This document shows positions 1 to 19,442 of a stretch of 64,000 bases of DNA, piece by piece (position 1 is the first letter of the stretch; each line of letters opens with the position of its first letter). The stretch comes from Lachnospiraceae bacterium. Lineage in GTDB: Bacteria > Bacillota > Clostridia > Lachnospirales > Lachnospiraceae. The notes beneath the pieces are model-generated. The model had not been told where the DNA came from and ran no database searches. It saw only the letters and a list, made by a program, of their open reading frames with translations. The position numbers and the translations under genes were made by a program. The DNA lies in NCBI GenBank assembly GCA_017521605.1, contig JAFXCD010000045.1:186001-250000 (forward strand), read 5' to 3'.

Positions 1-1
1 G

Positions 2-1350: not shown

Positions 1351-2331
1351 ATGGACAACAAGCCGTTTTTATTGCAGCCGGTCGGCAAGGATTACTTGTG
1401 GGGAGGTCGCAGACTGAATGATGAGTTTGAAAAGAATATTGACATGTCCCCCTTGGCGGAGACTTGGGAGTGCAGCACTCATCCGGATGGACTTTCCATT
1501 GTAGCCAGTGGCGAATATGCAGGGCGTGATTTGGCAAGTGTTTTGCAGGAACATCCTGAGTATCTGGGTACGCATCCGGAAACAAAGGGCGAGTTACCGA
1601 TATTAATTAAGTTTATCGATGCCAATCAGGACTTGTCCGTACAGGTTCATCCCACGGATGAATATGCCCGTAATAACGAGAATGGGGCATGGGGCAAGAC
1701 GGAAATGTGGTATGTGCTGGACGCAGCCAATGAGGCTAAGCTTATTTATGGTCTAAAGCATGATATGGAGCCTGTGCAGCTTAAAAGAGCATTGGAGTCA
1801 GGGATTGTTGAGAAATATTTGCAGAAGGTGCCTATTTGTAAGGATGATGTATTTTTTGTCCCGGCAGGAACCATACACGCTATCGGTGCAGGAGCTTTAG
1901 TAGCCGAAATCCAACAAAGCAGCAATCTGACCTATCGTTTGTATGATTATGAACGTGTGGACAAGCAGGGAAATAAACGAAAGCTTCATGTAGACAAGGC
2001 ATTGGAGGCTGCGGATTTACATGCTTCATGTACTCCCAGACAGCCCATGCGTGTGCTGAAATACCGCCCAGGTGTAGCTTCTGAGCTTTTATGCCGTTGT
2101 AAGTATTTTGAAGTATATCGTATGCTGGTAAATACGGAACGTCGCCAGCAAGTGTATTTCAGAGCGGATGAGCTTAGTTTTAGAGTTCTTTTATGCATAA
2201 ACGGCTGCGGCACCATGGAATTTGCCGGCGAAAGCTTGCATTTTTACAAAGGGGATTGTATCTTCGTACCTGCGGATTCGGTGGAGATTCGGATCCATGG
2301 ACAGGTACAGTTTTTGGATGTGAGAGGGTAG
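1351..2331 (+). CDS. manA: Mannose-6-phosphate isomerase, class I
   Basis: Interconverts fructose-6-phosphate and mannose-6-phosphate, feeding ManC. The type I PMI zinc-site motifs are visible: QVHPTDEY near residue 97, GKTEMWYVLD near 111, and PAGTIHAIGAG near 171. The length of 326 aa fits the short Firmicutes ManA. A GGAG-type Shine-Dalgarno sits about 8 nt before the ATG. It lies just downstream of manC and is probably cotranscribed. Its stop is followed almost at once by a degenerate araC fragment, so manA is the last gene before the AT-rich cassette. Confidence 0.93.
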   Translation: MDNKPFLLQPVGKDYLWGGRRLNDEFEKNIDMSPLAETWECSTHPDGLSIVASGEYAGRDLASVLQEHPEYLGTHPETKGELPILIKFIDANQDLSVQVHPTDEYARNNENGAWGKTEMWYVLDAANEAKLIYGLKHDMEPVQLKRALESGIVEKYLQKVPICKDDVFFVPAGTIHAIGAGALVAEIQQSSNLTYRLYDYERVDKQGNKRKLHVDKALEAADLHASCTPRQPMRVLKYRPGVASELLCRCKYFEVYRMLVNTERRQQVYFRADELSFRVLLCINGCGTMEFAGESLHFYKGDCIFVPADSVEIRIHGQVQFLDVRG

Positions 2332-2340
2332 GATTCATAT

Positions 2341-2410
2341 AATGTAATTTTGGCGATAAAGTGAATATCAATGTATTCTTTTGAATCCTGTAGGTTACTA
2401 TTGCCTGTAG
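2341..2410 (-). pseudogene. Degenerate fragment of an AraC-family regulator gene
   Basis: On the minus strand this stretch reads about 24 codons including NLQDSKEYIDIHF, matching NLQDLKEYLDIHF in the intact AraC regulator at 17277-18140. At DNA level it aligns without gaps to 17531-17600: 49 of 54 bases match over 2357-2410 and 59 of 70 over the whole stretch. It is not a gene: the frame is stopped upstream and runs into the manA end downstream. Both copies point the same way, so they form an imperfect direct repeat around the polysaccharide cassette. Confidence 0.8.
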
Positions 2411-2484
2411 CCTTTGCCTATCGGTATCAAATGAGGTATAGTAATTTATTATGGATTATTATGAGAAATCGGGAGATTGGATAT

Positions 2485-3681
2485 ATGAAAGTATTGGTAA
2501 TTCATAATTTTCATAGAAAAGGATCGGCAAGCGGAGATGATCAGGTTTATAAAAATGAAACAGCATTGTTAGAAGATAATGGAGTAGATGTTATAAAATA
2601 TACTGTTATTAATGATAGCTTTGATAATTCAAACGTATTTGAAAAGGTGGCTGCAACATTTGGTATGTTATGGTCATTTAAACATTATTATTCTGTAAAA
2701 AAAGTGATTAAAAGAGAACATCCGGATATTGTACATATTCATACATTTTTTCCGTTGTTATCGCCTTCAATTCTTTATGCAGGAAAACGCGCGGGATGTA
2801 AAGTAATTGCAACTTTACACGATACTAGATTTATATGTCCTTGTGCAACATCTTTACGGGAAAGAACGCTTTGTAATGAATGTGGTGATGGTAAATATTT
2901 TAGAATGTTTAAGTATAAATGTTTTAAAGGATCTAGATTCCAGAGTCTTATTGTTGCATTTATATTTAAATATCATCGTATAAGAAAAACATTTTATAGA
3001 CAAATAGATAAATATATTTGCCTAAATGATAATCAGATAAAGCTATTACGTGACATAGGATTTGATGAAAATAAAATAGTAAAAAAATATAATTTTGTTA
3101 AGGATTCAGTTGAAATACTTGAAGAAAAGCAAGTTGAATTACCAAAACTGCCCGAAAGATATGTTGTATATTTCGGAAGATTAGGGGAAGAAAAGGGTAT
3201 ACATGTGCTGATGAGTGCCTGGGAAGATTTGGATGATATACCAATTGTTGTAATGGGGGCGGGACCTTTGGAGGAAGAGTTTAATGCGTGGGCGCAGGAT
3301 AAGAAACAAGTGATTTGTTTGGGACATACAGAGCATTCTAAGTGTATGAAGATTGTTACTAATTCTGAATTTGTTTTTTTTCCGTCTGTATGCTATGAAG
3401 GATGCTCTATGGTTGTAATAGAGGCTGAAAGTCTAAGTAAACCAATAGTAGCAACAGATTTAGGTTTTGCATCAGAAGCAATAATTGATGATTATAATGG
3501 AGTAAAGGTCAAGCTTAATGATGTGGAAGGATTTAAAAATGCAGTTAGAATGCTGTGGTCGGATACTAGTAAATGCAGGCAAATGGGCAAAAATGCAAGA
3601 ATGGATTATGAAAATAAGTATACGTTGGAAAGAAATTTCAAACAGTTAGAAGCGATATACAATAATAAAATAGAACTGTGA
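2485..3681 (+). CDS. GT4-family glycosyltransferase
   Basis: A retaining GT-B glycosyltransferase of family GT4, expected to add a sugar to the lipid-linked repeat unit on the cytoplasmic face. The N-terminal domain begins MKVLVIHNF and contains DIVHIHTFFPLLSPS; the C-terminal half has YFGRLGEEKG and the E-x7-E motif EGCSMVVIE near residues 304-312. I chose the ATG at 2485, preceded by GGGAG, because an earlier ATG at 2371 would translate the araC remnant as a 38-residue leader. A CxxC-type cluster (residues about 118-135: CPC, CNEC) is typical of a GT4 subgroup. It is the first gene of the AT-rich cassette; donor and acceptor sugars cannot be read from sequence. Confidence 0.85.
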   Translation: MKVLVIHNFHRKGSASGDDQVYKNETALLEDNGVDVIKYTVINDSFDNSNVFEKVAATFGMLWSFKHYYSVKKVIKREHPDIVHIHTFFPLLSPSILYAGKRAGCKVIATLHDTRFICPCATSLRERTLCNECGDGKYFRMFKYKCFKGSRFQSLIVAFIFKYHRIRKTFYRQIDKYICLNDNQIKLLRDIGFDENKIVKKYNFVKDSVEILEEKQVELPKLPERYVVYFGRLGEEKGIHVLMSAWEDLDDIPIVVMGAGPLEEEFNAWAQDKKQVICLGHTEHSKCMKIVTNSEFVFFPSVCYEGCSMVVIEAESLSKPIVATDLGFASEAIIDDYNGVKVKLNDVEGFKNAVRMLWSDTSKCRQMGKNARMDYENKYTLERNFKQLEAIYNNKIEL

Positions 3682-3690
3682 GGATAATTT

Positions 3691-5385
3691 ATGAATCAAT
3701 ATAGAAGTAAAAGGAATATAACATTGATATTGGATATGATAGGCATTTCTTTATCATTTATAATTGCCTTAAGTATTCGTTTTACTTTATTGACCAAAAC
3801 TATAGGATTAGACTTAATTGTTTCAACATATGTTAGTTTTTTTGCATATGCGTTACTCATATATGTTTTTATTTTCTTGTTTAAGGATAATCCCCGATTG
3901 GAACGTATGTCTTATAGGGAAATTATCTTTAAGACAGTTGAACAGCAGTTTTTGTTTGTTATTACATATATAGTATTTTTCTTTGTTTTTCATAAGGCTG
4001 ATGTGATTTCACGTTTAGTTATTGGTATATTCTTTATTTGCAATGTTCTTTTGTGCAGTATTGGCCGTATTCTATATCACAATTTTTGTGTTTACAAAAG
4101 CAACAAAGAACGAGAAAAAAGAGCGAATGACGAAAATGTTAAGATTAATAGGCAGGAATTTGAAGGAATTGGACGTAATTCCATTCAGCATGTGTATATA
4201 ATCGGAAGTAAGTCAATCGGCATGTATGGTGGATATGAATCATTTGTAATGAATCTTTTGGCTGAACATAATGATGTAAAAGAGATTAAGTATCATGTGG
4301 CTTGTAAGGCTAATGGTAATGGATATATGAACCTTAGTAAGCTACCGGGGTCATTACGAATCAATGATAGTGAATTTTCGTATTGTGGTGCGCATTGTTT
4401 TATGATAAGTGTCCCGGACAGGCTTGGTTCTATGCAAGCGATTTATTATGATTTGGAAGCTTTAAAATGGTCTTGTGAACATATAGAAAGAAACCATATC
4501 AGAATGCCCATTGTGTATATTTTGGCATCTCGTATCGGTCCTTTTGAGAAGAAGTATGTTGAAAGAATCCACGATGCTGGAGGTATGGTTTTACAGAATC
4601 CGGACGGACGTGAGAATCTGAGACGTAAGTGGTCCTGGATGATACGTAATTATTGGAAATTCTCTGAGCGTTTATCTGTAAAATATGCAGACTTGGTTAT
4701 CTGCGATAGCAAAAATATTGAAGCATACATAAAGGATGAATATGCGTCTTATAAGCCTAAAACAAGTTTTATCGCATATGGTTCTCATATTACGAAAACA
4801 GAATCCGATGATACCGAAATCAAATATCAGAGCTGGTTGGAAGATCACGGTCTAGAGGATGGAGAGTTTTATATTAGTGTGGGGCGATTTGTTCCGGAAA
4901 ATAATTTTGACATTATGATTCGTGAGTTTATGATGAGTCATACTCAAAAGGATTTTGCGATTATTACTACTGAGAATAGTAAGTATGCTGCTCAACTCCA
5001 ACAGAAGCTACAATATAAGCAGGATAGTAGGATTAAGTTCGTAGGTGCTGTATATGATACAGAGCTGATTGCTAAGATCAGAAATAGTGCTTATGGTTAT
5101 TTTCATGGACATGAGGTTGGTGGTACTAACCCCTCTTTGCTGGAAGCCTTAGGAAGTACCAAATTGAACCTGTTATATGATGTTTGCTATAACAGGGAGG
5201 TGGCAGAAGATGCCGCACTTTATTGGACAAAGGATGAAGGCAATCTGGCAAGCTTGATTGACAAGGCGGACAAGTTGGATGAGGCTGAATTAGAAGGATA
5301 TGAAAAGAAGGCTAAAAGTAGGATAACAGCAGAATACTCATGGAAAATGATTGCTGATAAGTACTTGGATATATTCTTGATGTAG
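3691..5385 (+). CDS. Chimeric membrane-anchored DUF1972/GT4 glycosyltransferase
   Basis: The N-terminus has about four hydrophobic helices (roughly residues 8-28, 45-65, 85-105, 108-128) resembling the membrane part of polyprenyl-phosphate sugar-phosphotransferases. The catalytic domain of those priming enzymes is absent. From about residue 165 the protein is a DUF1972-type rhamnosyltransferase-like GT4: MYGGYESFV near 177, NPDGRENLRRKW near 302, and an E-containing GTNPSLLEALG near 476. The 3' half is less AT-rich than the 5' half, which fits a fusion. It lies 9 bp after the preceding GT4 gene. A rhamnosyl or other deoxyhexosyl transferase is likely, but the substrate is not determinable here. 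Confidence 0.78.
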   Translation: MNQYRSKRNITLILDMIGISLSFIIALSIRFTLLTKTIGLDLIVSTYVSFFAYALLIYVFIFLFKDNPRLERMSYREIIFKTVEQQFLFVITYIVFFFVFHKADVISRLVIGIFFICNVLLCSIGRILYHNFCVYKSNKEREKRANDENVKINRQEFEGIGRNSIQHVYIIGSKSIGMYGGYESFVMNLLAEHNDVKEIKYHVACKANGNGYMNLSKLPGSLRINDSEFSYCGAHCFMISVPDRLGSMQAIYYDLEALKWSCEHIERNHIRMPIVYILASRIGPFEKKYVERIHDAGGMVLQNPDGRENLRRKWSWMIRNYWKFSERLSVKYADLVICDSKNIEAYIKDEYASYKPKTSFIAYGSHITKTESDDTEIKYQSWLEDHGLEDGEFYISVGRFVPENNFDIMIREFMMSHTQKDFAIITTENSKYAAQLQQKLQYKQDSRIKFVGAVYDTELIAKIRNSAYGYFHGHEVGGTNPSLLEALGSTKLNLLYDVCYNREVAEDAALYWTKDEGNLASLIDKADKLDEAELEGYEKKAKSRITAEYSWKMIADKYLDIFLM

Positions 5386-5437
5386 TGAACGAATGTAGGT
5401 GAATATATTTGACTTCAAGCGTGATGGAGTGAAATGA

Positions 5438-6379
5438 ATGAATAATGTTGAGATATCAATTATCATACCTGTATATAATGTAAAGATGTATTTAGAGCGT
5501 TGTTTGGATTCCATTATTGGTCAATGTAAGGATAAATGTGTGGAGATTATTCTAATTGATGATGGTTCAAATGATGGTAGTGAAACATTATGTGATTTGT
5601 ATCTTAAGAACTATTCAGAAGTTATTAAGGTTATACATAAAGTAAATGGTGGTCTTTCATCAGCCCGTAATGCCGGTTTAGACATTGCAGATGGCAGATA
5701 TGTTTGTTTTTTGGACTCAGATGATATGATTGCAGATGGGTTTATCGATGATATGCTTAGCTTTATAGAGAAGGAACCGGATTTTATACACTTTTCATTT
5801 TGTTTTGAAAACAATGGCAATTACAAGCTGAAAGGAAACAAGGAAGTATTAGAGGTAAATAAGGATAAGTTTTTAGATGATTTGTTGAAAATTGAATTTG
5901 AGTGCCAGATTTGTATAGGGTGCTATAGAAAGATGCTCTTTGATGAGATTCGCTTTCCTAAAGGACGAAATTACGAGGATATGGCTACGTTATATAAGCT
6001 TGTATTAAAGTCTGCTAATATTTATTATGTAAACTATTCATACTATATATATAATATATCCAATACCAACTCTATCACTAAAATTACATCATTAAAAAAT
6101 ATGAATGATATGTATCTTTCAGTGAATGAAATGTGTGATGGTATTAAGTGTTATTATGAACACAAGAATATTGATTTGACATATCTGGAGTACTTTAAGA
6201 GAAATGAGTATATATATATTTATATAAAATTACTAAAGGTTGAGAATGCAAGTAGATTAAAGAAAGAGATTTAAGAGTATCTATTAAAAAATCGAAATTA
6301 TAATTTGATTAAATTCCGTTATTACAATTTAAAAAAATTAATCTTTTTTTATGTGATGTCAATGTTGAGATTGATATAG
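5438..6379 (+). pseudogene. GT2 glycosyltransferase interrupted by an in-frame TAA
   Basis: A GT-A fold family 2 glycosyltransferase: ISIIIPVYNV at the start, DDGSNDGS near residue 41, a GGLSSARN motif, and the metal-binding DSDD near residue 93. The first 278 codons end in TAA at 6272-6274. The same frame then stays open for 34 codons, rich in Lys, Tyr and Leu, to a TAG at 6377-6379 that overlaps the Shine-Dalgarno of the next gene. With the stop read through, the protein would be 313 aa, usual for this family; without it a 114-bp gap is unexplained. The catalytic domain is complete in the truncated form (5438-6274), so partial function remains possible. Confidence 0.7.
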
Positions 6380-6388
6380 GAGGCTAAT

Positions 6389-7693
6389 ATGATAAATATT
6401 GATGTGCTCATTATATATGAGCATGTATCTAGAGAATTGGAGAGTGCAGTTTTATTAAAAAAGGAACTTGAAAAGCGTGGATTAAGAACTAGAATTGCCC
6501 AATATGGGTGGTCCGAACCTGCTGCTAGGTTTTTATATAATCCTAAAATAATTATCGCACCGTGGTGTTATGATGATATAGATTATGAATTTTTTCGTGA
6601 GTTTGTAGGTGGATATGATGGCGGTAGGTTTAAATTGATTAACATCCATTGCGAACAAATTGGTAATTCAGAGGATAGTGGCTTTATGTTACCAAGTGGT
6701 AAAGCGAAAGAAGTATACCATTTTGTTTGGGGGGAGTATTTTAAAGAAAAACTTCTAGGATGTGGTACAGATATTAATAAAATTTTTATAACAGGAAATA
6801 TTAGGCTTGATTTTTTTAGGGATACATATAAGAAAATATCGGTAGATAAAAAAAATTTGATTGAAAAGTACAATTTAGATAATTGTAAAAAGTGGATATT
6901 AATTATTGGAAGCTTTTCAGGTGATGTGTTACAGGGAAAAGATATCTCTCAATTGCAAGAGAGGGGCATTAATAATATAGATACTTGGAAAAAGATAATG
7001 CTTGATTCATATTATAATATATTAAACTGGATGGAATATATCTGTAATAAAGAAGTTGTATCAAATGATTATGAAATTATATATAGACCACATCCGAGCG
7101 AATGTATTACCGATAATTTAAGGGAAATTGAAAAAAAATTTAGTAATTTTCATATTATTGGAGACTATGCTATACGTGACTGGATGATAAATGTAGATAA
7201 ATTATATGCATGGAATAGCACTTCGGCTGTCGAAGCTATTTATTCAGACAAACCTATAATTTTCTTGCGTCCAATTGAAATTCCTGAGAATTTTAGAAGT
7301 CCATTACTAGAAAAAGTTGTTAAAATTACTAATCCAAAACAGTTTTATGAATCTATTTTTAATGAGGATGATAAAGATGATAATTTCAATAAAGAATTTA
7401 AAGAAGATGTAAATTTCTATTATCATAAAGACGAAACTACTTCTGTATATAAAATGGTTAAATTAATTGTTGAAATATATAATAAAGATGAAAATTATGT
7501 ATATGGAAAGATTTCAATGACAAAAAGAATTTTTCTATTCATAAAATACATTATAAAATGTATTTTAAAAAAAGTTGGTTTGCTAAGGTTTTTTCCGAAT
7601 GTTAAGCGTGTTGCAGATGATGTTATTGGGAGAAAAGAATTAAGAGAATTAATAACAAGAATTAATAGTATTGGTGATGTAAATGAACGTTAA
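6389..7693 (+). CDS. BFO_1060-type surface carbohydrate glycosyltransferase
   Basis: Resembles the surface carbohydrate biosynthesis family named after BFO_1060, a GT-B-like family related to capsule and CDP-glycerol transferases. Visible motifs are WGEYFKEKL and an ITGNxRLDF element in the N-terminal half, YRPHPSE near residue 235, and NSTSAVEA near 276 followed by PIIFLRP. HP and Ser/Thr-Ser motifs also occur in several bacterial sialyltransferase families. As a CMP-nonulosonate is made by neighbouring genes, this is my best candidate for its transferase (inference). An AGGAGGC Shine-Dalgarno precedes the ATG. The last 11 bp overlap the flippase gene. Very AT-rich, suggesting transfer. Confidence 0.7.
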   Translation: MINIDVLIIYEHVSRELESAVLLKKELEKRGLRTRIAQYGWSEPAARFLYNPKIIIAPWCYDDIDYEFFREFVGGYDGGRFKLINIHCEQIGNSEDSGFMLPSGKAKEVYHFVWGEYFKEKLLGCGTDINKIFITGNIRLDFFRDTYKKISVDKKNLIEKYNLDNCKKWILIIGSFSGDVLQGKDISQLQERGINNIDTWKKIMLDSYYNILNWMEYICNKEVVSNDYEIIYRPHPSECITDNLREIEKKFSNFHIIGDYAIRDWMINVDKLYAWNSTSAVEAIYSDKPIIFLRPIEIPENFRSPLLEKVVKITNPKQFYESIFNEDDKDDNFNKEFKEDVNFYYHKDETTSVYKMVKLIVEIYNKDENYVYGKISMTKRIFLFIKYIIKCILKKVGLLRFFPNVKRVADDVIGRKELRELITRINSIGDVNER

Positions 7694-9113
7694 ACATTTT
7701 TTTCAAAATATGATGAAATATTGCATTCCATCGGTTGTGACAGCAATATTAAGTATAGCTGTAATTCCGATTGTATCCAGAGTTTTTCCTACGGATGATT
7801 ATGGAAAGATTAATATGTTCTATACGGTTGGGAATATGGCTTTATATATAGTTATGATGGGATTAGATAGTGCATACATACGTTTTTATTTTGAAGAGTT
7901 TAAAGGTATTAATAGGAAAGATATATTCTCCTTAACATTTTGGTTAAGCTCGGTATTTATTTGTATTACAACTATATTCATATTTATATTCATAAAGGAT
8001 ATAGTTACTATTTATCTTTTTGGTGAAGTAAAAGGTTACTTGTTGTTATTATTGGCTATATATATTTTTTCGTTAATGTTGTTTAGGATGTTGAGTATTG
8101 AAACCCGTATGGAGGAAAAATGCCTACTCTATAATATACAACAGATAGTATTAATTATCATTAATCGAGTTTCATATGTATTAGCAGTGTTTGTTACAAC
8201 TAATTATCAATTTGCAATTATTATTATTACAGTTAGTACCTTGATGTTTGCAGTTATCTTTTTATTTAAACAGAAAAAAATACAGGAATTAAGAATTCCC
8301 AATGTTTCTCGAGAGGCATTGAAGGGTATATTGGCATTTTCCATTCCTTTGATGCCTACGACTGTAATGATATGGCTAAATAATTCGGCAGCAAAAATGG
8401 TTCTTTCAGGATATGGTGATTTTTGTAGTCTGGGAATTGTATCTATGGCAACGGGATTAGCAAATGTGTTTTCCCTGATTCCATCAGCATTTTGTGTGTA
8501 TTGGTCACCATTTATGTATAAGAATTATAAGGATGAGCAAGCGTTCATCAAAAAAGTGCATAATTATATTATGTTAATAAGTATATTAATGGTTTTGGGT
8601 TTCTATAGTTTACAAGATGTTTTATATTTGATAATAGGAAGTGAATATAAAGCTTCACAATCATATTTCATGTTGATAATGTTATCAGCAATTCAATCAT
8701 TAATAAGTGAAACTACCAGCTATGGTATTATTTTGGAAAAGAAAACTAAAGTAAATTTATATATTTCCATAATAGCGTTATTGATTAATGTATTGACTGG
8801 TTATTTACTTTATCCAATAATGAAATCTTTTGGAGTTGTCTTAGGTATTTCGTTATCAGCTTTGTTTCAATTAGTTATTAAGACAATTATAGGACAAAAG
8901 TATTATGTAAGTATAGTAAGTAAATGGCAGACAATATTGGGATACATATTGATAATTATTATAATCACAAGTAACGTGTGGTTTTATGATGAATTTATTG
9001 TAAGAATTATTTTATCTATTACAATATTATGTATTACATTGGTTTTATATAAGAATGATGTAGTAGTTATATTTAAGAAACTAAGTACAATCAAATATAA
9101 AAATAAAGGATAA
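7683..9113 (+). CDS. wzx: Wzx-type oligosaccharide flippase
   Basis: A polytopic protein of 476 aa with about 12-14 hydrophobic segments in the pattern of the polysaccharide transporter branch of the MOP superfamily. It is expected to flip the undecaprenyl-diphosphate-linked repeat unit across the membrane. The N-terminal PSVVTAILSIAVIPIVSRVFPTDDYG is a recognisable family start (amphipathic helix, then FPTDDYGKIN). The ATG lies inside the end of the upstream glycosyltransferase (11-bp overlap), which implies translational coupling. No Wzy polymerase is recognisable beside it. Confidence 0.85.
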   Translation: MNVKHFFQNMMKYCIPSVVTAILSIAVIPIVSRVFPTDDYGKINMFYTVGNMALYIVMMGLDSAYIRFYFEEFKGINRKDIFSLTFWLSSVFICITTIFIFIFIKDIVTIYLFGEVKGYLLLLLAIYIFSLMLFRMLSIETRMEEKCLLYNIQQIVLIIINRVSYVLAVFVTTNYQFAIIIITVSTLMFAVIFLFKQKKIQELRIPNVSREALKGILAFSIPLMPTTVMIWLNNSAAKMVLSGYGDFCSLGIVSMATGLANVFSLIPSAFCVYWSPFMYKNYKDEQAFIKKVHNYIMLISILMVLGFYSLQDVLYLIIGSEYKASQSYFMLIMLSAIQSLISETTSYGIILEKKTKVNLYISIIALLINVLTGYLLYPIMKSFGVVLGISLSALFQLVIKTIIGQKYYVSIVSKWQTILGYILIIIIITSNVWFYDEFIVRIILSITILCITLVLYKNDVVVIFKKLSTIKYKNKG

Positions 9114-9119
9114 TAAAAA

Positions 9120-10328
9120 GTGTTTGAATTAAATGAATTTATAAATAAGTATGTGACTAAAAGAAACATAAGCCTGTTTAATAAAGATATTGAAGAAAAT
9201 CAGGAGCAATTAGTAAAAAAGATAGCGAATAAAAGCGTTTTGGTTATTGGAGGTGCAGGAAGTATTGGATCTTCTTTTATACGAGCAATATTACCGTTTT
9301 TTCCCTCTTCATTAGTAATAGTTGATACAAATGAAAACGCTTTAGCTGAACTAACACGTGATTTGCGCTCAACAAAAGGGATGTTTGTACCTAAGGACTA
9401 TATTACATATCCCATGGATTTTGCATCATCAGTATTTGAAAAGATGTTCAGAAAACGCGGAGGTTTTGATATTGTTGCTAATTTTTCTGCTCATAAGCAC
9501 GTAAGATCAGAAAAAGATATTTATTCCATAGAAGCACTTTTGAAAAACAATGTATTACATGCTAAGAAGTTGTTAGATTTATTGGCAGAGTTTCCGCCGG
9601 AAGAGTACTTTTGTGTTTCTACAGATAAAGCAGCAAATCCTGTAAATATTATGGGAGCAAGCAAAAGAATAATGGAAGATGTTATTTTTTCCTATTCTGA
9701 TAAATTTCCGGTTAAGACAGCAAGATTTGCAAATGTAGCGTTTTCAAATGGTTCATTACCACAAGGTTTTTTAGACCGACTAAGAAAGCTACAGCCTTTA
9801 TCAGCTCCATCTGATGTCAGACGATATTTTGTATCACCGGATGAATCCGGACAGATATGTATGATGGCTTGTATGCTTGGAAAGAATAGAGAGATTTTCT
9901 TTCCGAAATTAAAAGAAGAACAAATGATTACTTTTGATAAAATTGCCACAGCACTATTGAAAGAACATGGTTTTAATGTTTTAGAATGTAATTCGGATAC
10001 GGAAGCAATAGATAAAGCTGAAGAGTTAAAGATGGGAAGTAAAAACTATCCGGTTCATTATTCTGCTTCGAATACATCAGGAGAGAAAGCCTATGAAGAA
10101 TTTTTCACAGATACAGAATTTACAGACATGAAAAGGTATAAGGCACTTGGGGTTATTGTGGGAAAAAATATACCCCAAAAATCAGGAATAGAAACTCTAT
10201 TTGAAAAATTAGCAATAGTCTTTAACAAAGAAGAAACAAGTAAAGAAGAAGTGGTTGAAATAATTAAAGAGTATTTGCCAAATTTTGAACATATCGAGAA
10301 AGGTAAGTCATTAGATAACAAAATGTAA
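9120..10328 (+). CDS. legB: Nucleotide-sugar 4,6-dehydratase of the legionaminic acid pathway
   Basis: An extended short-chain dehydrogenase of the polysaccharide biosynthesis (FlaA1/CapD) type. The Rossmann motif GGAGSIGSS is near residue 43, STDKA near 167, and the catalytic region is MGASK near 178, with Met in place of the usual Tyr as in this inverting/retaining dehydratase group. In Campylobacter the homologue acts on GDP-GlcNAc as the first committed step to legionaminic acid. The 402-aa length with a long C-terminal extension fits LegB better than the shorter PseB. It starts with GTG, 6 bp after wzx, and is followed by the LegC aminotransferase. Confidence 0.82.
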   Translation: MFELNEFINKYVTKRNISLFNKDIEENQEQLVKKIANKSVLVIGGAGSIGSSFIRAILPFFPSSLVIVDTNENALAELTRDLRSTKGMFVPKDYITYPMDFASSVFEKMFRKRGGFDIVANFSAHKHVRSEKDIYSIEALLKNNVLHAKKLLDLLAEFPPEEYFCVSTDKAANPVNIMGASKRIMEDVIFSYSDKFPVKTARFANVAFSNGSLPQGFLDRLRKLQPLSAPSDVRRYFVSPDESGQICMMACMLGKNREIFFPKLKEEQMITFDKIATALLKEHGFNVLECNSDTEAIDKAEELKMGSKNYPVHYSASNTSGEKAYEEFFTDTEFTDMKRYKALGVIVGKNIPQKSGIETLFEKLAIVFNKEETSKEEVVEIIKEYLPNFEHIEKGKSLDNKM

Positions 10329-10346
10329 TGTTTTGGAGGATGTTTT

Positions 10347-11525
10347 ATGGGTAAATATATACCATTATCCGTACCTAATTTTGAAGGTAATGAAAGAAAG
10401 TATGTGAATGAAGCGGTAGAACAGGGATGGGTATCTACTGGTGGCGCATTTATATCAAAAATGGAAGAACAACTTGCTGAATTTATTAAGGTGGATAATG
10501 TTGCGGCATGTCAGAGCGGAACGGCAGCTATTCATTTAGCTTTGGTAGATACCGGAGTAATGCCTGGTGATGTTGTGTTAGTTCCAACATTAACCTTTAT
10601 TGCAGCTGTAAATCCGGTAAAATATCAGTATGCAACACCTATATTTATTGATTGTGATGATAGTTTATGCTTGGATCCAAAGAAATTGCAATCATTTTGT
10701 GAAGAAGAATGTAAATTTGTAAATGGAGTTTTAAAATATAAAAGTAAGATAGTTAAAGCTATTATAGTTGTTCACGTATTTGGTAATTTTTCTGACATGG
10801 AAGCAATTATGAATATTGCGGAAAAATATAATCTAAAGGTAATAGAAGATGCTACAGAAGCATTAGGAACTTATTATACAGATGGAAAATATGCCGGAAG
10901 GTATGCGGGAACAATTGGTGACTATGGTGCATTTAGTTTTAACGGCAATAAGATTATCACAACTGGTGGAGGTGGAGCGATAACTGCTAAGAATAGTAAA
11001 ACAGTCGATCATCTTCGATATCTTTCGACTCAAGCTAAAGACGATGCTCATTATTACATACATCATGAAATTGGGTATAATTACCGTATGACAAATCTAC
11101 AAGCAGCACTTGGGGTTGCTCAAATGGAGGAATTAGAAGAGTTTATTAGAAGGAAACAAAGGAATTATGAAAGATATGCTGAATTGTTAGCTGACTTTGA
11201 TTTTGTGAAATTGTTACCTTTCAGACAAGGGACATGTAGTAATAAGTGGTTTTATTCACTTGAAATTGACAGAAATAGAATTAAAACAAATATGAGAGAG
11301 ATTATATCGGTTCTTGAAAGTAAAGGTATTCAATCGAGACCTATTTGGGGGTTGATAAATGAACAAAAACCATATATTAATGAATTAACATATAAACTCG
11401 AAAAAGCACCATATTATGCAGAAAGGATTCTTAATATTCCTTCATCAACTCAAATAACTAATGATGAAATAATATATGTCGTTGATACATTGAAGGAGAT
11501 ATTAACAGGATGTGCAAATGAATGA
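10347..11525 (+). CDS. legC: PLP-dependent sugar aminotransferase (DegT/DnrJ/EryC1/StrS family)
   Basis: Expected to aminate the 4-keto sugar made by LegB, giving the 4-amino-4,6-dideoxy intermediate. Family marks are the start YIPLSVPNFEGNERKYVNEA, the active region DATEALGTYY near residue 171, and FSFNGNKIITTGGGGAI with the PLP-binding Lys near 201. The order legB-legC-ptmE-legH-legI-legG-legF supports the assignment over other sugar aminotransferases. A GGAGG Shine-Dalgarno lies upstream. Its last codons overlap the start of the next gene. Confidence 0.85.
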   Translation: MGKYIPLSVPNFEGNERKYVNEAVEQGWVSTGGAFISKMEEQLAEFIKVDNVAACQSGTAAIHLALVDTGVMPGDVVLVPTLTFIAAVNPVKYQYATPIFIDCDDSLCLDPKKLQSFCEEECKFVNGVLKYKSKIVKAIIVVHVFGNFSDMEAIMNIAEKYNLKVIEDATEALGTYYTDGKYAGRYAGTIGDYGAFSFNGNKIITTGGGGAITAKNSKTVDHLRYLSTQAKDDAHYYIHHEIGYNYRMTNLQAALGVAQMEELEEFIRRKQRNYERYAELLADFDFVKLLPFRQGTCSNKWFYSLEIDRNRIKTNMREIISVLESKGIQSRPIWGLINEQKPYINELTYKLEKAPYYAERILNIPSSTQITNDEIIYVVDTLKEILTGCANE

Positions 11526-12594
11526 GGATATAAAGAAATATCTTAGCCTTAACAATATATCTATAGTTGAAGCTATGCAAAAAATTGATGCTAATTCTAG
11601 GGGGATTTTGTATATCACAGACGAAAAAGAGTGCTTAATAGGTTCGTTATCTGATGGAGATATAAGAAGGTGGATTATTAAAACCGGAAATTTATCAGGA
11701 AACGTTTATGAGGCAATGAATACAAATGTAATATCTGTACTATATGATTCTAATTTTGAATACAAAAAATATATGGAAGAAAAGGGTGTTACTTCATTAC
11801 CTATTGTTGACTATGATAATAAGATTAAAGATATATTTTTTCGAGATAAATTAGTTGAATTAACAAAAAACAATGAATCATTAAAAGAGATACCTGTAAT
11901 TGTGATGGCAGGCGGTAAAGGGACACGTTTGTATCCCTTTACTAAGATATTGCCAAAACCGTTAATACCAATTGGTGATATTCCGATTTTAGAAAGAATA
12001 TTTAATAGATTTTGTTATTTTGGAACAAACACATTTTATCTTATTGTTAATTATAAGAAAGATATGATACGTTCTTACTTTAATGATTTAAATCCAGAGT
12101 ATTCTATTAAGTATATTGAAGAAGAGAAGGCCTTAGGGACAGCAGGTGGTCTTAGGCTTATTGATGATGATTTAGAAGGACCTGTTATTATAACTAATTG
12201 TGATATTCTTATTGAAGCTGATTATGGGAAAATCATAGATTATCATAGAGAATCCCATAATGATTTGACTATTGTTTCCTCTTTGAAAAATGTGACAATT
12301 CCATATGGTGTGCTAAAATCTGAAGAACATGGTCGAGTGGTTTCATTAGAAGAAAAACCTACATTATCCTATTTTATCAATACAGGAATGTATGTTATTA
12401 ATGCTGAGCATTTAAAGAAGATACCAAATGATACCGTTTATCATATGACTAATTTAGTTAATGAGCTTATGAAAGAAAGGCTACGTGTTGGGATGTATCC
12501 AATAAGTGAGAACTCTTATTTGGACATGGGACAGTTAGAAGAGATGAAAAGAATGGAAGAGCAGCTTAATGTGAGTTCTAATATGAGGAATTAG
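11518..12594 (+). CDS. ptmE: CBS-domain nucleotidyltransferase (PtmE-like glucosamine-1-phosphate guanylyltransferase)
   Basis: Two CBS motifs occupy about residues 1-118, followed by a sugar-nucleotidyltransferase domain with VMAGGKGTRLYPF near residue 128 and LPKPLIPIGD. This two-part architecture is that of Campylobacter PtmE, which makes the GDP-activated glucosamine that feeds LegB. The CBS pair could bind a nucleotide and tune activity (inference). I prefer the ATG at 11518, seven bases after AGGA, over a GTG six bases earlier; either overlaps the legC end. The pathway helpers PtmA, PtmF and PgmL are not seen here. Confidence 0.82.
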   Translation: MNEDIKKYLSLNNISIVEAMQKIDANSRGILYITDEKECLIGSLSDGDIRRWIIKTGNLSGNVYEAMNTNVISVLYDSNFEYKKYMEEKGVTSLPIVDYDNKIKDIFFRDKLVELTKNNESLKEIPVIVMAGGKGTRLYPFTKILPKPLIPIGDIPILERIFNRFCYFGTNTFYLIVNYKKDMIRSYFNDLNPEYSIKYIEEEKALGTAGGLRLIDDDLEGPVIITNCDILIEADYGKIIDYHRESHNDLTIVSSLKNVTIPYGVLKSEEHGRVVSLEEKPTLSYFINTGMYVINAEHLKKIPNDTVYHMTNLVNELMKERLRVGMYPISENSYLDMGQLEEMKRMEEQLNVSSNMRN

Positions 12595-12596
12595 CA

Positions 12597-13226
12597 ATGA
12601 AGGAAATTGTAATTGTTGGAAATGGTGGTTTCGCAAAAGAAGTTAAATGGCTGATTGACAGAATAAATAAGACGAAAAACACATGGGAATTCAAGGGATA
12701 TATTGATGTTGATGTTAAAGATTCTGATGTGATTGGAAATGATGATTTTTTGTTAGGGTATAAGGCTGAACTAGCTGTTGTAGTAGCTATAGGTTCCTCG
12801 AAAATAAGAGAAAAACTTGTTGAAAAGTATAAAGTTAATAAATATATATATTATCCTAATTTAATCGATCCTAGTGTAATTATGTCAGATAAGATAGTTA
12901 TGGGTCAGGGTAATATTATATGTGCGGGGGCTATATGTACTGTGAATATTAGTATTGGAAATTTTAATATAATCAATCTGGATTGTACCATTGGTCATGA
13001 TACAATTATAAAAGATTATTTGACGATTAATCCAAGTGTTAATATTTCTGGTGGATGCATTATAGATAATGCAGTAAACTTAGGTACTGGAGTTCAGGTG
13101 ATACAAGGGATAAAAATAGGTGAAAGAACCACAGTTGGAGCTGGAGCGGCTGTAATTAGTAATTTGCCGTCTATGTGTTTGGCGGTTGGTGTACCGGCTA
13201 AGATAAAAAAATGGTATGAAGAGTAA
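12597..13226 (+). CDS. legH: NeuD/LegH-type sugar O/N-acyltransferase
   Basis: A 209-aa protein with an N-terminal nucleotide-sugar-binding region (VGNGGFAKEVKWLI) and a C-terminal left-handed beta-helix of hexapeptide repeats, roughly residues 95-200, ending in GVPAKI. This is the PglD/NeuD family. In the legionaminic pathway the homologue LegH acetylates the 4-amino group before LegG acts; a NeuD-like O-acetylation of the finished sugar is the alternative. It starts 2 bp after the ptmE stop, and its stop lies inside the start region of legI. Confidence 0.8.
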   Translation: MKEIVIVGNGGFAKEVKWLIDRINKTKNTWEFKGYIDVDVKDSDVIGNDDFLLGYKAELAVVVAIGSSKIREKLVEKYKVNKYIYYPNLIDPSVIMSDKIVMGQGNIICAGAICTVNISIGNFNIINLDCTIGHDTIIKDYLTINPSVNISGGCIIDNAVNLGTGVQVIQGIKIGERTTVGAGAAVISNLPSMCLAVGVPAKIKKWYEE

Positions 13227-13242
13227 CAAGGGTGAGTTGATT

Positions 13243-14244
13243 ATGGATAATAATAGAACTTTAATTATAGCTGAAGCAGGTGTAAATCATAATGGAAGTT
13301 TGGAGTTGGCAAAAAAAATGGCTTATATTGCAAAAGAATGCGGCGCAGATATTGTAAAATTTCAGACTGCCAAATTGGATTCTCTTGTTTCAAAACACGC
13401 TAAAATGGCTGAGTATCAAAAAGAAAATATTGGGAATGAAATGTCTCAAAAAGATATGTTAAGTAGATTGTTGCTTACATATGAAGAGTTTATAGAATTA
13501 GAAAATTATTGTAAAAGTATAGGAATTAATTTTTTATCAACTCCTTTTGATGTTGATAGTATTTATTTTTTGAAAGATTTACAAAAATTATGGAAGATTC
13601 CTTCAGGTGAGATTACTAATTATCCGTATTTATTAGAGATTGCTAAGACAGGATATCCAGTTATTATATCTACAGGAATGAGTGAAATGAAAGAGATTCA
13701 TGAAGCTATTAAGGTTTTGAGAAGTGAAGGAACTACAGATATTACAATATTACATTGTACAACAGAGTATCCAACTCCATTATCAGAAGTTAATTTAAAT
13801 GTAATGGATACTTTGAAGAATGAATTTGGATATAAAATAGGATATTCTGATCACACAAATGGTATTGAGATTTCTCTAGCAGCTGTAGCAATGGGAGCTT
13901 CTGTTATAGAAAAACATTTTACGCTCAATAAAAATATGGAAGGTCCTGATCATAAAGCCTCTCTAGAACCAAATGAATTGAAGCTATTGATTGATGGAAT
14001 TCGCAAAATTGAATTGGCTAAAGGCTCTAAAGAAAAAAAACCAACTGAATCCGAATTAAAGAATCGTGCTGTAGCAAGGAAAAGCATTGTTGCATCAATG
14101 AATATAAAATGTGGTGAAGTTTTTACTGTGAACAACATAACAACAAAACGACCAGGAAATGGAATATCACCCATGATGTGGAATGATATACTTGGTTTAA
14201 AAGCAAAACGTGATTTTGAAGAGGACGAGTTAATAGAATTATGA
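13243..14244 (+). CDS. legI: N,N'-diacetyllegionaminate synthase (NeuB family)
   Basis: Condenses the 6-deoxy-diamino-mannose intermediate with phosphoenolpyruvate to form the nine-carbon acid. The NeuB signature IIAEAGVNHNG opens the protein. KFQTAK, FLSTPFD, KIPSGEITNYP and GYSDHTNG follow, then a C-terminal SAF/antifreeze-like domain (about residues 275-333: ARKSIVA, ISPMMW). I chose the ATG at 13243, preceded by AAGGGTGAG, over the ATG at 13216, which lies in the legH end and adds nine unconserved residues. The 333-aa length is usual for the family. NeuB itself would be called by similarity, but the LegB and LegC neighbours favour legionaminate. Confidence 0.88.
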   Translation: MDNNRTLIIAEAGVNHNGSLELAKKMAYIAKECGADIVKFQTAKLDSLVSKHAKMAEYQKENIGNEMSQKDMLSRLLLTYEEFIELENYCKSIGINFLSTPFDVDSIYFLKDLQKLWKIPSGEITNYPYLLEIAKTGYPVIISTGMSEMKEIHEAIKVLRSEGTTDITILHCTTEYPTPLSEVNLNVMDTLKNEFGYKIGYSDHTNGIEISLAAVAMGASVIEKHFTLNKNMEGPDHKASLEPNELKLLIDGIRKIELAKGSKEKKPTESELKNRAVARKSIVASMNIKCGEVFTVNNITTKRPGNGISPMMWNDILGLKAKRDFEEDELIEL

Positions 14245-15401
14245 TAAAAATTGCTGTGATTACATCAACAAGAGCTGATTTTGGATTATTAATGCCTGTT
14301 ATAAAAGCACTTAGATTTTATGAAAATCATAAAGTCGTTGTTGAATTAGTGGTGACAGGAACACATCTTAGTAATGCACATGGTAATACAATCAAAGAGA
14401 TTGAAATGATGGACATAAGAATTGACCAAAAAGTAGAAGTCTCTGTAAAATCCAATAATGCAATAGATATTTCAATGAATCAAGCTGAAATATTGGTCAA
14501 GTTTACCGAGCTTTTTCTACAACAAAAATACAATGCTATTATTTTATTAGGAGATAGATACGAGCTTCTTTCTATAGCTATTGCTGCAGGAAATACCCAA
14601 ACTCCAATATTTCATTTGTGCGGTGGTGATACTACAGAAGGTGCAGTTGATGAATGGATTCGACATTCTATTAGTAAAATGAGTTATTTACATTTTGTTA
14701 CGAATGAAGAGAGTTATAGAAGGGTTTTACAGCTTGGAGAAGACAAAGATAGAGTATTTAATTATGGTTCTACAAGTATTGATAATATTTTAAGTATCTC
14801 ACCAATAAAGAAAGTTGAAGCACTAAAAGAGCTTGGCTTAAATGATTGTAAATATGCAATATGTACTTTTCATCCTACAACTTTAGATAATTATGATGTT
14901 TCAGTACAGATGAATAATTTATTCAAAGCAATTAAAAGCTTTCCACAAATAGAATTTATATTTACAAAATCAAACGCCGATCAAGGTGGAAATATTATAA
15001 ATAATATGCTAGATGTAGCAAATTTGAAAATTGATAATCTTCATGTATATAGTTCATTAGGAGTGGTAAGATATTTGTCTTTAATGCGATATGCTGAATT
15101 TGTTATTGGAAATTCTTCTAGTGGCATAGTTGAAACACCTGCATTTTCTATTCCTACAATTAATATTGGTGATAGACAAAAGGGACGTTTACAGTCGGAG
15201 AGTATTATTAATTGTAATTATGAAATACAAAGTATTGTTACGGCTATTAATAGAGCGTTAAGTAGTAAATTTAAAGAAATTTGCAAAACAGTAAAAAGTC
15301 CATACGGAGATGGTCATGCAGCTGAAAGAATTGCTGATAAAATAATGGATGTTGTTAATAGGGGAGATATAAATTTAAAAAAGAGATTTTGTGATTTATA
15401 A
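14241..15401 (+). CDS. legG: Hydrolysing UDP-GlcNAc-type 2-epimerase (LegG/NeuC family)
   Basis: Removes the nucleotide and inverts C2 to give the 2,4-diacetamido-2,4,6-trideoxymannose used by LegI. Features are the start ITSTRADFGLLMPV, LGDRYELLS near residue 101, HLCGGDTTEGAVDEWIRHSISKM near 122, and GNSSSGIVETPAF near 286. It overlaps legI by 4 bp (ATGA), indicating translational coupling. NeuC for sialic acid is the close alternative; the presence of LegB and LegC argues against that. Confidence 0.87.
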   Translation: MIKIAVITSTRADFGLLMPVIKALRFYENHKVVVELVVTGTHLSNAHGNTIKEIEMMDIRIDQKVEVSVKSNNAIDISMNQAEILVKFTELFLQQKYNAIILLGDRYELLSIAIAAGNTQTPIFHLCGGDTTEGAVDEWIRHSISKMSYLHFVTNEESYRRVLQLGEDKDRVFNYGSTSIDNILSISPIKKVEALKELGLNDCKYAICTFHPTTLDNYDVSVQMNNLFKAIKSFPQIEFIFTKSNADQGGNIINNMLDVANLKIDNLHVYSSLGVVRYLSLMRYAEFVIGNSSSGIVETPAFSIPTINIGDRQKGRLQSESIINCNYEIQSIVTAINRALSSKFKEICKTVKSPYGDGHAAERIADKIMDVVNRGDINLKKRFCDL

Positions 15402-15416
15402 AGGAAAAGACTGTAT

Positions 15417-16121
15417 ATGAAAAATATTGCTATAATACCTGCAAGAAGTGGTTCAAAAGGATTAAAAGATAAGAATATTAAAGAACTTAACGGAAAACCT
15501 CTAATTTGGTATTCTATTCAAGCTGCTCTTGAATCAGAATGTTTTGATGAAGTAATGGTCTCAACTGATAGCAAAAAATATGCTGAAATAGCTTTACAAT
15601 GTGGAGCTTCCGTTCCTTTTTTAAGAAGCGATGAAATGTCCGCTGATAATGCTGGAACATGGGAAGCTATTAGAGAAGTATTGTTAATGTATAGCGAGAT
15701 GGGTCGCGAATTTGATAACGTTATGTTACTACAACCAACATCACCATTGAGAGTTAAAGAAGATATAAAAAATGCATTTGAACTTTTTATTGATAAGAAA
15801 GCAAACAGTATAGTTGGTGTTTGTGAAGTAGAACATTCTCCATTATGGTGCAATATACTTCCTGATGATAAGTGTTTAAGTAATTTTATTACAGATGAAG
15901 TTAAAAAATATAAAGGAAGACAAGAGATATCTCAATATTATAGAGTTAATGGAGCAATTTATTTGACAAAGATTTCGTATAAAGATATGAAGTTTGATTT
16001 ATATGATGATAAATCATATGCATATTGTATGCCACAGACTAGGTCTGTTGATATAGATACCGAATTAGATTTTATTTTAGCAAGTAGTATTATGGATTAT
16101 TATAACATTAAAAGAGTATAG
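15417..16121 (+). CDS. legF: CMP-legionaminate cytidylyltransferase (NeuA/LegF family)
   Basis: Activates the nonulosonic acid as its CMP sugar. Family motifs are IIPARSGSKGLKDKNI at the start, LLQPTSPLR near residue 104, and YRVNGAIY and the metal-binding DIDTELD near the C-terminus. The length of 234 aa is usual. It follows legG by 15 bp and precedes the amidotransferase, so it completes the path from a GDP-sugar to a CMP-nonulosonate. The enzyme family does not by itself distinguish legionaminate from sialate. Confidence 0.87.
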   Translation: MKNIAIIPARSGSKGLKDKNIKELNGKPLIWYSIQAALESECFDEVMVSTDSKKYAEIALQCGASVPFLRSDEMSADNAGTWEAIREVLLMYSEMGREFDNVMLLQPTSPLRVKEDIKNAFELFIDKKANSIVGVCEVEHSPLWCNILPDDKCLSNFITDEVKKYKGRQEISQYYRVNGAIYLTKISYKDMKFDLYDDKSYAYCMPQTRSVDIDTELDFILASSIMDYYNIKRV

Positions 16122-16142
16122 TTTTTTTAAGGAGAGCATTAT

Positions 16143-17255
16143 ATGAAATATTGTACCAAATGTACCATGCCGGATACTCGTCCTGGAATTACTTTTGATG
16201 AAAATGGAGTATGCTGTGCATGTAACCATTATGAAAGTCGAAAGAATATTAATTGGGAAGAACGCTGGAAAGAATTTGAAGTGTTATGTGATAAATATAG
16301 AGGATGTAACGGACCGGGGAATTACGATTGTGCTATAGCAGTTTCGGGTGGTAAGGATAGTCACTACCAAGTTTATATAATGAAAGAAGTAATGAAAATG
16401 AATCCAATACTTTTTTCGGTAGAAGATAATTTTCCAATGACAGAAGCCGGTAAATGGAATATTAAAAATATTAGTGAAGAATTCGGTTGTCCTATAATTA
16501 GTTATAAACCGAACATAAAAGCACAGAAGATTGCAATGCGTGCAATGTTTGAAAAATATGGTAAGCCTACGTGGTATTTAGATAGATATATTTATACATA
16601 TCCATTGCATATGGCATTAAAATTTAATACCATGTTGCTTGTTTATGGTGAGAATGTAGCCTTTGAATATGGTGGAACAAATGATGAAGAAACATATTCG
16701 GCACGTATTCAAATTGAGAATGGTGTTGCTTCTGGGTTGAGTAAGGAAGAATTAATAAGTTTTGGTTTATCTGAAAATGATTTAATTATGCTTGACGCAC
16801 CAAAAGAAGAAGATTTACAAAGATTAGATCCAATGTATTTAAGTTATTTTTTACCATGGAATAGTGTGAAGAACTATGAATTTGCAAAATCAAGAGGATT
16901 TAGGGACTTAACACATGAATGGGATAGAACACACCATGCTGAGAATTATGATCAAGTGGATTCGAGAGCATATTTAGTACATCCTTGGCTTAAGTACCCT
17001 AAATTCGGACATGCAAGTGCAACTGATTATACGGCTAGGTTTATTCGTTATGGTCTAATGACACGTGAAGAAGCAATTAAAATTGTAAAAGAAAGAGACC
17101 ATCGACTGGATCCAAAATGCATAGAGGATTTTTGCGAATTTTGCGGATATACCCAAAAAGAATTCTATTCAATAGTTGATAAATTATATAATACTGAATT
17201 GTTTGTAAAGGATGATTTGGGTAGATGGAGATTAAAAGAAGCAATTTATGACTAA
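16143..17255 (+). CDS. N-acetyl sugar amidotransferase (PseA/PtmG/WbpG family)
   Basis: Likely converts an acetamido group of the nonulosonate to an acetamidino group, as PseA and related proteins do. A zinc-ribbon-like CxxC pair is at residues 4-7 and 24-27, and the PP-loop ATPase motif SGGKDS is near residue 67. The C-terminus carries a further CIEDFCEFC motif. An AAGGAG Shine-Dalgarno precedes the ATG. In some species the family works with HisH- and HisF-like partners that supply ammonia, but none is present here. It is the last gene of the cassette and converges on the araC gene with only 21 bp between the stops. Confidence 0.83.
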   Translation: MKYCTKCTMPDTRPGITFDENGVCCACNHYESRKNINWEERWKEFEVLCDKYRGCNGPGNYDCAIAVSGGKDSHYQVYIMKEVMKMNPILFSVEDNFPMTEAGKWNIKNISEEFGCPIISYKPNIKAQKIAMRAMFEKYGKPTWYLDRYIYTYPLHMALKFNTMLLVYGENVAFEYGGTNDEETYSARIQIENGVASGLSKEELISFGLSENDLIMLDAPKEEDLQRLDPMYLSYFLPWNSVKNYEFAKSRGFRDLTHEWDRTHHAENYDQVDSRAYLVHPWLKYPKFGHASATDYTARFIRYGLMTREEAIKIVKERDHRLDPKCIEDFCEFCGYTQKEFYSIVDKLYNTELFVKDDLGRWRLKEAIYD

Positions 17256-17276
17256 TTGACTTATAAATATAAAAAA

Positions 17277-18140
17277 CTACCACCTCCTCCTATACTCCCC
17301 CGGAGCCAGTCCTTCCACCTTCTTAAAAGCCCGTGCGAAGTAATTGGCATCCGGAATACCGCACTCTATCGCAATTTCTTCTATAGCCTTGTCAGTGAAA
17401 CGTAAAAGCTGCTTTGCAAGAGTAATGCGTTGTTGCATAATATATTGATTTACGGACATGCCGAATTGTTCTTTGAAGATTCTGGTTAAGTAGTATTTAT
17501 CGATATAGAAGAGGGCGGATAAATTATCAAGTGTTATTTTTTCAGTAAAGTGAATATCAAGGTATTCTTTTAAATCCTGCAGGTTTCTTTTGCCTGTAGG
17601 ATTTATTTGTGTTTGTATGGCAGGCGCCCAGCTTTCTTCCATCAATAATGTCAGGATAGCAGTGATTAGTTGGAAGATCTTCATGTCTTTTATATAATCT
17701 GATGAAGCGGCAATTGAGTACAATTGACTAAGTAAGTCATTATATTCAGTAAGATGTTTTGTGTGAAATGCAGCAGAACCACCTCGTTCTACATATTTTT
17801 GATAAATAGCAGACATATTAGGACCATAGAAATGTGCCCATTTTAAGGTCCAAAGTTGATCCTCGGTATGATGCGAATAATTTTTATGACAATCAATAAA
17901 GACACAGTCGCCTTTATGTAATTCATAAGTATTTCCGTCATAATTCAAGATACCGGAGCCGTCCAAAACAATAAAGAGGAGATAAGAAGACAAACCATTT
18001 CTCGAGCTTGTATGTGGGTTTTGTGCTACCAACTCACCGATTTCCTGTAAATGTATTAAATTAGCCTTTGCAAACTCTGAAGGAGTATAAAGAATTCGAT
18101 TGTTATTTGTTAAGCTATCATGAAATAATGATTTGTTCAT
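17277..18140 (-). CDS. AraC-family transcriptional regulator with cupin sensor domain
   Basis: An N-terminal cupin-like arm (about residues 20-150: GLSSYLLFIVLDGSG, HKGDCVFID) is followed by a double helix-turn-helix (about 185-287: LSALFYIDKYYLTRIFKEQFG, then IAIECGIPDANYFARAFKK). The domain order and 287-aa length are those of carbohydrate-responsive AraC activators. It is divergent from gmd, whose promoter has a good extended -10 but a poor -35, as expected for an activated promoter. A short degenerate copy of the middle of this gene lies at 2341-2410, on the other edge of the cassette. A GGAG Shine-Dalgarno precedes the start. Confidence 0.88.
   Translation of the reverse strand: MNKSLFHDSLTNNNRILYTPSEFAKANLIHLQEIGELVAQNPHTSSRNGLSSYLLFIVLDGSGILNYDGNTYELHKGDCVFIDCHKNYSHHTEDQLWTLKWAHFYGPNMSAIYQKYVERGGSAAFHTKHLTEYNDLLSQLYSIAASSDYIKDMKIFQLITAILTLLMEESWAPAIQTQINPTGKRNLQDLKEYLDIHFTEKITLDNLSALFYIDKYYLTRIFKEQFGMSVNQYIMQQRITLAKQLLRFTDKAIEEIAIECGIPDANYFARAFKKVEGLAPGEYRRRW
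17531..17600. repeat. Right copy of imperfect direct repeat flanking the polysaccharide cassette
   Basis: This stretch inside the araC gene matches 2341-2410 at 59 of 70 positions without gaps, offset exactly 15190 bp. Its best part, 17547-17600, matches at 49 of 54. Both copies have the same orientation. The repeat encloses the glycosyltransferase, flippase and legionaminic acid genes. Confidence 0.75.
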
Positions 18141-18389: not shown

Positions 18390-19442
18390 ATGAAAAAAGC
18401 ATTAATTACCGGTATTACCGGCCAGGATGGTTCCTATTTGGCAGAATTTTTGTTGGAAAAAGGATATGAGGTACATGGTATTGTAAGACGTTCTTCCTTG
18501 TCAAATACAGCCAAAATCGATCATTTGATTGAAAAGAAGGCAATTACTTTACATGAAGGCGATTTGACAGATTCATCATCTTTAATACGTATTATAAATA
18601 TTGTTCAGCCGGACGAAATTTACAATCTGGCAGCCCAGTCCCATGTACAGGTATCCTTTGATGTGCCTGAATATTCCGGTGATGTAGATGCTTTAGGTGT
18701 TCTTAGAGTATTGGAAGCGGTACGTATTCTGGGATTAGAAAAGAAAACACGTATATATCAGGCCTCCACTTCAGAATTGTATGGTAAGGTGGAAGAGGTT
18801 CCGCAGAGAGAAACCACTCCGTTCCATCCCTACAGTCCGTATGCAGTGGCAAAGCAGTACGGTTTCTGGATAACCAAGGAATATCGTGAAGCTTATGGAA
18901 TGTTTGCAGTTAATGGTATTTTGTTCAACCATGAGTCTGAGAGACGTGGTGAAAATTTTGTAACCCGTAAGATTACTTTGGCTGCCGGACGTATTGCAGA
19001 AGGCTTACAGGACCATTTGGAACTTGGAAATATGGATTCCTTACGTGACTGGGGTTATGCCAAGGATTATGTAGAGTGTATGTGGATGATCCTACAGCAT
19101 GATACACCGGAGGATTTTGTAATCGCTACCGGTGAGCAGCATACGGTTCGTGATTTTACGGAAAGAGCCTTTAAGGCCAATGGTATTACTTTACGTTGGG
19201 AAGGCACCGGTATTGATGAAAAGGGTTATGATATAGAGACCGGTAAGATGCTTGTTTGTGTGAATCCTGCATGGTTCAGACCTACAGATGTAGATAATCT
19301 TTGGGGGGATCCTACGAAAGCAAAAACAGTGCTTGGCTGGAATCCGCAGAAGACCAGTTATGAAGAGTTGGTTAATATTATGGCTACTCACGACCGTGCT
19401 CTTGCAAAGCGTGAAAAGACTTTGAAGGAAGCTAATGCTTAA
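18390..19442 (+). CDS. gmd: GDP-mannose 4,6-dehydratase
   Basis: Converts GDP-mannose to GDP-4-keto-6-deoxymannose, first step to GDP-fucose. It has [19 protein letters not shown] at the start, the substrate-contact LYGKVEE, and the catalytic YAVAK near residue 153 with STSELYG upstream. [15 protein letters not shown] is a GMD-specific block. The ATG at 18390 lies seven bases after AAGGAG; a TTG two codons earlier is less likely. The length is 350 aa. It is followed 15 bp later by fcl, and uses the product of manC/manA on the other side of the cassette. Confidence 0.95.

Follow-up and report, generated by a model that had tools for sequence, protein, structure and literature searches.

The window analysed here, a stretch of 64,000 nucleotides from a Lachnospiraceae bacterium, carries its GDP-fucose genes in a permuted order: manC-manA, a short scrap of araC, 14.8 kb of glycan genes, and then araC on the minus strand, divergent from gmd-fcl. 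The scrap is homologous to the intact araC of the same window, it is the decayed member of the pair, and the gene order in which it sits is a minority order in the genus. With moderate confidence, we propose that the scrap is the remnant of an extra copy of the lineage's own araC, and that the permuted order arose through duplication of the GDP-fucose operon followed by uneven loss. The features concerned, in window coordinates, are as follows.

1-1282, plus strand: manC, which starts upstream of the window directly behind ugd (TIGR01479, 167.6 bits against a cut-off of 373).
1351-2331, plus strand: manA, mannose-6-phosphate isomerase, a complete open reading frame (TIGR00218, above cut-off).
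2341-2410, minus strand: left copy of the repeat, a dead internal araC scrap beginning 9 bp after the manA stop and covering approximately codons 181-204, where the helix-turn-helix domain begins.
2485-17255, plus strand: 13 AT-rich glycan genes, including glycosyltransferases, a flippase, LegC/NeuB/NeuC/NeuA-type nonulosonate genes and a WbuX-type amidotransferase.
17277-18140, minus strand: araC, an intact open reading frame for an AraC-family regulator of 287 amino acids, divergent from gmd (Pfam HTH_18, 1.3e-21; AraC_binding).
17530-17599, minus strand: right copy of the repeat, inside the intact araC, aligned with the left copy without gaps.
18390-19442, plus strand: gmd, GDP-mannose 4,6-dehydratase (TIGR01472, 525 bits, above cut-off).
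19458-20402, plus strand: fcl, GDP-L-fucose synthase (NF047922, 479 bits, just below the cut-off of 500).

The name manC is presumptive, being taken from a partial TIGR01479 match below the cut-off and from the general character of the family. The initial annotation had located manC-manA, the AT-rich genes and gmd-fcl correctly, but its layout has to be amended in that manC starts outside the window and the glycan genes continue upstream. The 20 kb upstream of the window consist mostly of glycan-type genes, so the glycan region does not start at manA. Upstream of manC lie a heptose epimerase, a PEP mutase, a phosphonopyruvate decarboxylase, an epimerase-like gene and ugd. On the same contig (locus L155, 13004-17285), a phosphonate branch is found inside the glycan region; it comprises a PEP mutase preceded by nucleotidyltransferase-like domains, an Fe-alcohol-dehydrogenase-like gene and the phosphonopyruvate decarboxylase. 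These genes suggest a phosphonate-decorated surface glycan. Between the two araC copies, a LegC-type aminotransferase, NeuB, NeuC, the WbuX amidotransferase and a PseF-like cytidylyltransferase (below cut-off) suggest that a nonulosonate sugar may be made, presumably of the legionaminate type. Within this legionaminate-like set (9120-17255), the 4,6-dehydratase at 9120 scores far below the FnlA and PseB cut-offs, and the cytidylyltransferase at 15417 falls under the PseF cut-off.

The two copies have the same orientation and are offset by 15,189 bp, with 59 of 70 positions identical in the ungapped alignment and 49 of 54 in the best part (2357-2410). The earlier description of the repeat was accurate in these respects; its coordinates for the right copy (17531-17600) are one base off. 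The 55-mer at 2356-2410, compared with both strands of the window, matches the right copy at 49 of 55 positions and any other place at 32 or fewer, which puts the repeat far beyond chance. When the left stretch was searched against its own 3.8-Mb genome, it matched only itself and the right site (E 8e-16, 85% over 68 bp). The longest exact runs shared by the copies are 15, 10, 10 and 7 bp. The source assembly consists of 125 contigs, with 92.9% completeness and 6.0% contamination, and the contig carrying the locus is 337 kb long. Because the repeat has so little exact identity, a misassembly caused by it is unlikely.

Read on the minus strand, the left copy is a degraded version of approximately codons 181-204 in the araC frame, at the start of the DNA-binding domain, and a tblastn search with AraC against the stretch behind manA returned 71% identity over 24 amino acids (E 1.2e-6). 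That the right copy lies inside an intact AraC regulator and the left is a dead araC fragment, as the initial annotation had stated, is borne out by these results and by the closeness of the fragment to its own araC. Missing from the scrap are the final 253 bp of araC towards manA and, at its opposite end, the first 180 codons. The 10 differences within 2345-2410 fall on codon positions 1, 2 and 3 in the numbers 1, 3 and 6, which are too few to date the copy. Three further similarities near the scrap were rejected. A possible second remnant at 2442-2484, before the first glycan gene, resembles the stretch before gmd with a score of 19, a value reached by 8 of 2,000 shuffles; it is not counted, because the 53 other leaders in the window include one with a score of 21 and two with 18, and because the start codons are not aligned. 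The 10-base match of 2408-2417 with 18062-18071 is at chance level (1,505 of 2,928 random window pieces score as high). Similarity extending into the end of manA was discounted, since the C-terminus of the window's ManA is similar to those of relatives.

To place the copies relative to each other, the same 75-nt segment was compared in 54 distinct sequences from relatives, a set that may include paralogues. Every one of them resembles the right copy more closely than the left. The copies differ at 14 sites; there, the base most frequent in the relatives equals that of the right copy at 8, that of the left copy at 1 and neither at 5. The left copy's base is absent from all relatives at two sites, and at two positions changed in the scrap the right copy's base is kept in 53 of 53 and 53 of 54 relatives. 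In a comparison over 66 nt, the left copy has 80% identity with the right one, and the best relative reaches 70%. Most simply, then, the left copy would be the derived one, a decayed duplicate of the lineage's own araC whose separation from the right copy postdates the divergence of this lineage from all sampled relatives. The scrap thus combines similarity to an intact gene of its own genome (E 8e-16) with derived changes in the remnant, as a decayed duplicate should.

No comparable scrap was found in the 137 other genomes of the genus, with scoring limited to six candidates per genome; three short matches were returned, with E values from 5e-5 to 4e-3, covering 30, 40 and 19 bases. A search of 99 genomes, the window's own included, gave only two matches outside that genome's copies, of 26 and 30 bases. 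In the relatives' DNA, where some loci represent the same contig twice, the left stretch has one 26-base match at E < 0.1 and the right stretch thirteen.

Gene order was tabulated from all rows of the search results (128 gmd, 115 manC, 49 araC and 44 manA, within the E-value limits set for each search), with neighbouring matches at most 16 kb apart taken as one cluster. In the genus and in named contigs beyond it, the usual order, whole or partial, is araC on the minus strand, divergent from gmd-fcl-manC-manA. The genes gmd and manC share a cluster on 76 genus contigs; gmd comes first on 67 and manC on 9, the window among the latter. Where araC and gmd occur together (39 contigs), araC is upstream and divergent on 27, the window included, upstream on the same strand on 10 and downstream on 2. 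Matches to both manA and araC are present on 14 genus contigs, and only in the window is manA upstream of araC. Among 15 named loci, 10 have the minus-strand araC beside gmd, for example in Lachnoclostridium, Hungatella and Desulfosporosinus. Other arrangements exist. G118 (C21, 45792-51173; locus L119) has a different permutation, manC-araC(-)-gmd-fcl-manA, in which 22 bp separate the manC match from the araC match; five genomes have manC-manA-gmd with no araC match on that contig; and G153 and G004 have manC before gmd. In G002 (C20, 47285-51654; L153), gmd-fcl-manC is followed by a same-strand araC at the usual place of manA. The complete usual module, with an AraC that is 61% identical, also occurs in Desulfosporosinus acididurans (L103, 10001-15483, turned orientation), and its presence in a different Bacillota family hints that the module may have been transferred as a whole.

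Phylogenies of the module genes were compared. The window's manC groups with G037, G139, G013, G002, SUG1317 and UBA1759 (98/96), its manA with G037, G139, G122, G043, G013 and SUG1317 (99/92), and its gmd with G118, G002, UBA1759 and SUG1317 (93/91, below the starred level). The gmd of G037 is of a different type, 72% identical. The fcl tree places the window with G054 (98/95), not with the kin of manC or gmd, and the araC tree gives no resolved sister. The overlap among the manC, manA and gmd kin suggests that both halves of the window's operon plausibly come from one operon lineage, whereas the fcl and araC trees and the gmd type of G037 speak against it. In G002, UBA1759 and SUG1317, which are near kin by both manC and gmd, gmd-fcl-manC is contiguous.

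These observations suggest a route from the usual order to that of the window. An ancestral module araC(-)-gmd-fcl-manC-manA would have been duplicated so that a copy of araC came to lie behind manA, and uneven loss of the spare copies would have left manC-manA on one side, araC(-) and gmd-fcl on the other, and one 70-bp scrap behind manA, with the glycan genes ending up between the two module halves. A single simple tandem duplication would not give a scrap with an intact araC to its right, so an extra step would be needed, involving either a third copy or a circular intermediate, or else a small duplication that took place separately. Three elements of this route are inferred: the origin of the order by duplication, the unity of duplication and permutation, and the way in which the glycan genes came to separate the halves. 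How new gene orders can arise through segmental duplication with asymmetric loss, the SNAP model of Brandis and Hughes (2020), is described in PMC8046335. Of the signs that such a process would leave, a gene order changed relative to relatives is present (gmd first on 67 of 76 contigs, manC first on 9), and traces of more than one lost copy are not, the araC scrap being the only one. The other spare copies have perhaps decayed, and the locus is therefore best described as working like SNAP and not as a proved case.

Remnants of gmd, fcl, manC and manA were sought in the 20 kb upstream and the first 44 kb of the window, and none was found. The same scan was extended to relatives, where 71 of 76 loci qualified by carrying two or more of the five genes (fewer than 71 genomes, since some contigs, such as L107 and L115, were fetched twice) and each gene was sought only in loci holding its intact copy. 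G118 and G153, the manC-first contigs with araC, contain no self-remnant, and no AraC trace was detected in the five manC-manA-gmd genomes, where the search covered 400 bp behind manA. Neither the scan of 71 loci nor the order table showed two modules side by side; the sampling is one genome per species, and 66 of the 138 genus genomes reach a completeness of 90% or more and a contamination of 5% or less. As neither module-gene remnants nor traces in the testable manC-first contigs were detected, the sequence of events is reconstructed, and some probability must be left to an insertion of filler DNA.

Such an insertion, in which approximately 70 bp of araC would have been copied as filler during repair of a break behind manA or during insertion of the glycan genes, we regard as unlikely. 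The absence of both araC ends from the scrap is explained equally well by a short templated insertion, and counts against duplication; moreover, the 2411-2441 stretch following the scrap matches nothing in the rest of araC above chance, and the scrap lies at the joint of the GC-richer manA and the AT-rich glycan genes. However, an insertion alone would leave the permuted operon unexplained, and no other filler at the joint can be assigned to a source. The position at the AT-rich border, together with genes similar to some of the window's glycan genes near GDP-fucose genes in several relatives, is also what a scar of cassette replacement would show, the glycan genes having entered by homologous recombination in araC at a locus reused for exchange. 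The initial annotation had raised this and a general locus for swapping surface glycans, expecting related genomes to hold different gene sets between manA and araC, with the fragment kept. Such genomes were not found in the genus survey, the nearest ManA found being 71% identical: the window alone of the 14 contigs with manA and araC has manA upstream, no comparable scrap was found in the 137 other genomes, and the left copy goes back to the araC of its own lineage and not to that of any sampled relative. Nor is the suggestion of continued recombination between the copies supported: the longest exact run is 15 bp, and by what is generally known of minimal homology, recombination between them should be inefficient. 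Replacement is thus quite improbable, and repeats bordering glycan regions should not automatically be read as exchange sites.

The same orientation of the copies at both AT-rich borders would also fit the terminal direct repeat of a mobile element or a recombinase site, but the right copy is mid-gene coding sequence, no recombinase or transposase was matched among all 13 intervening genes in Pfam or NCBIfam scans, and no further copy exists in the genome; we give this reading hardly any credence. A functional scrap, for example a regulatory RNA or an AraC-linked control element, has its survival and nothing else in its favour, whereas it is changed at the two positions that relatives keep almost invariably and was not found in relatives. 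We saw no function for it, and one is very improbable. Duplication with uneven loss consequently remains our preferred reading. A broader extension, that the GDP-fucose operon of this group is repeatedly amplified and unevenly collapsed, driving the mixing of glycan genes around it, with the window as one event that left a fossil and G118, G153, G004 and the five manC-manA-gmd genomes as others without a known trace, is doubtful.

No account of this locus turned up in the open-access papers searched. Ordinary as the event is in kind, the scrap neatly preserves a reordering of genes in fossil form. It offers small but physical evidence linking an altered operon order with a duplication within one and the same lineage, a link that comparisons of gene order can mostly just infer. 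Here, as in SNAP as described in PMC8046335, a conserved operon has changed its order and part of a spare gene copy survives. The present locus differs in that the operon is a small one for a sugar precursor, that only a single one of the lost copies can still be traced, and that the survey turned up no duplicated intermediate. In Salmonella O-antigen clusters, remnants of wzy lie between wbaV and wbaU, according to PMC3715488, and there too a dead gene piece in a glycan locus records an earlier arrangement. The Salmonella remnant is that of a polymerase whose role was taken over elsewhere, whereas the piece described here is that of a regulator with its intact copy 15 kb away.
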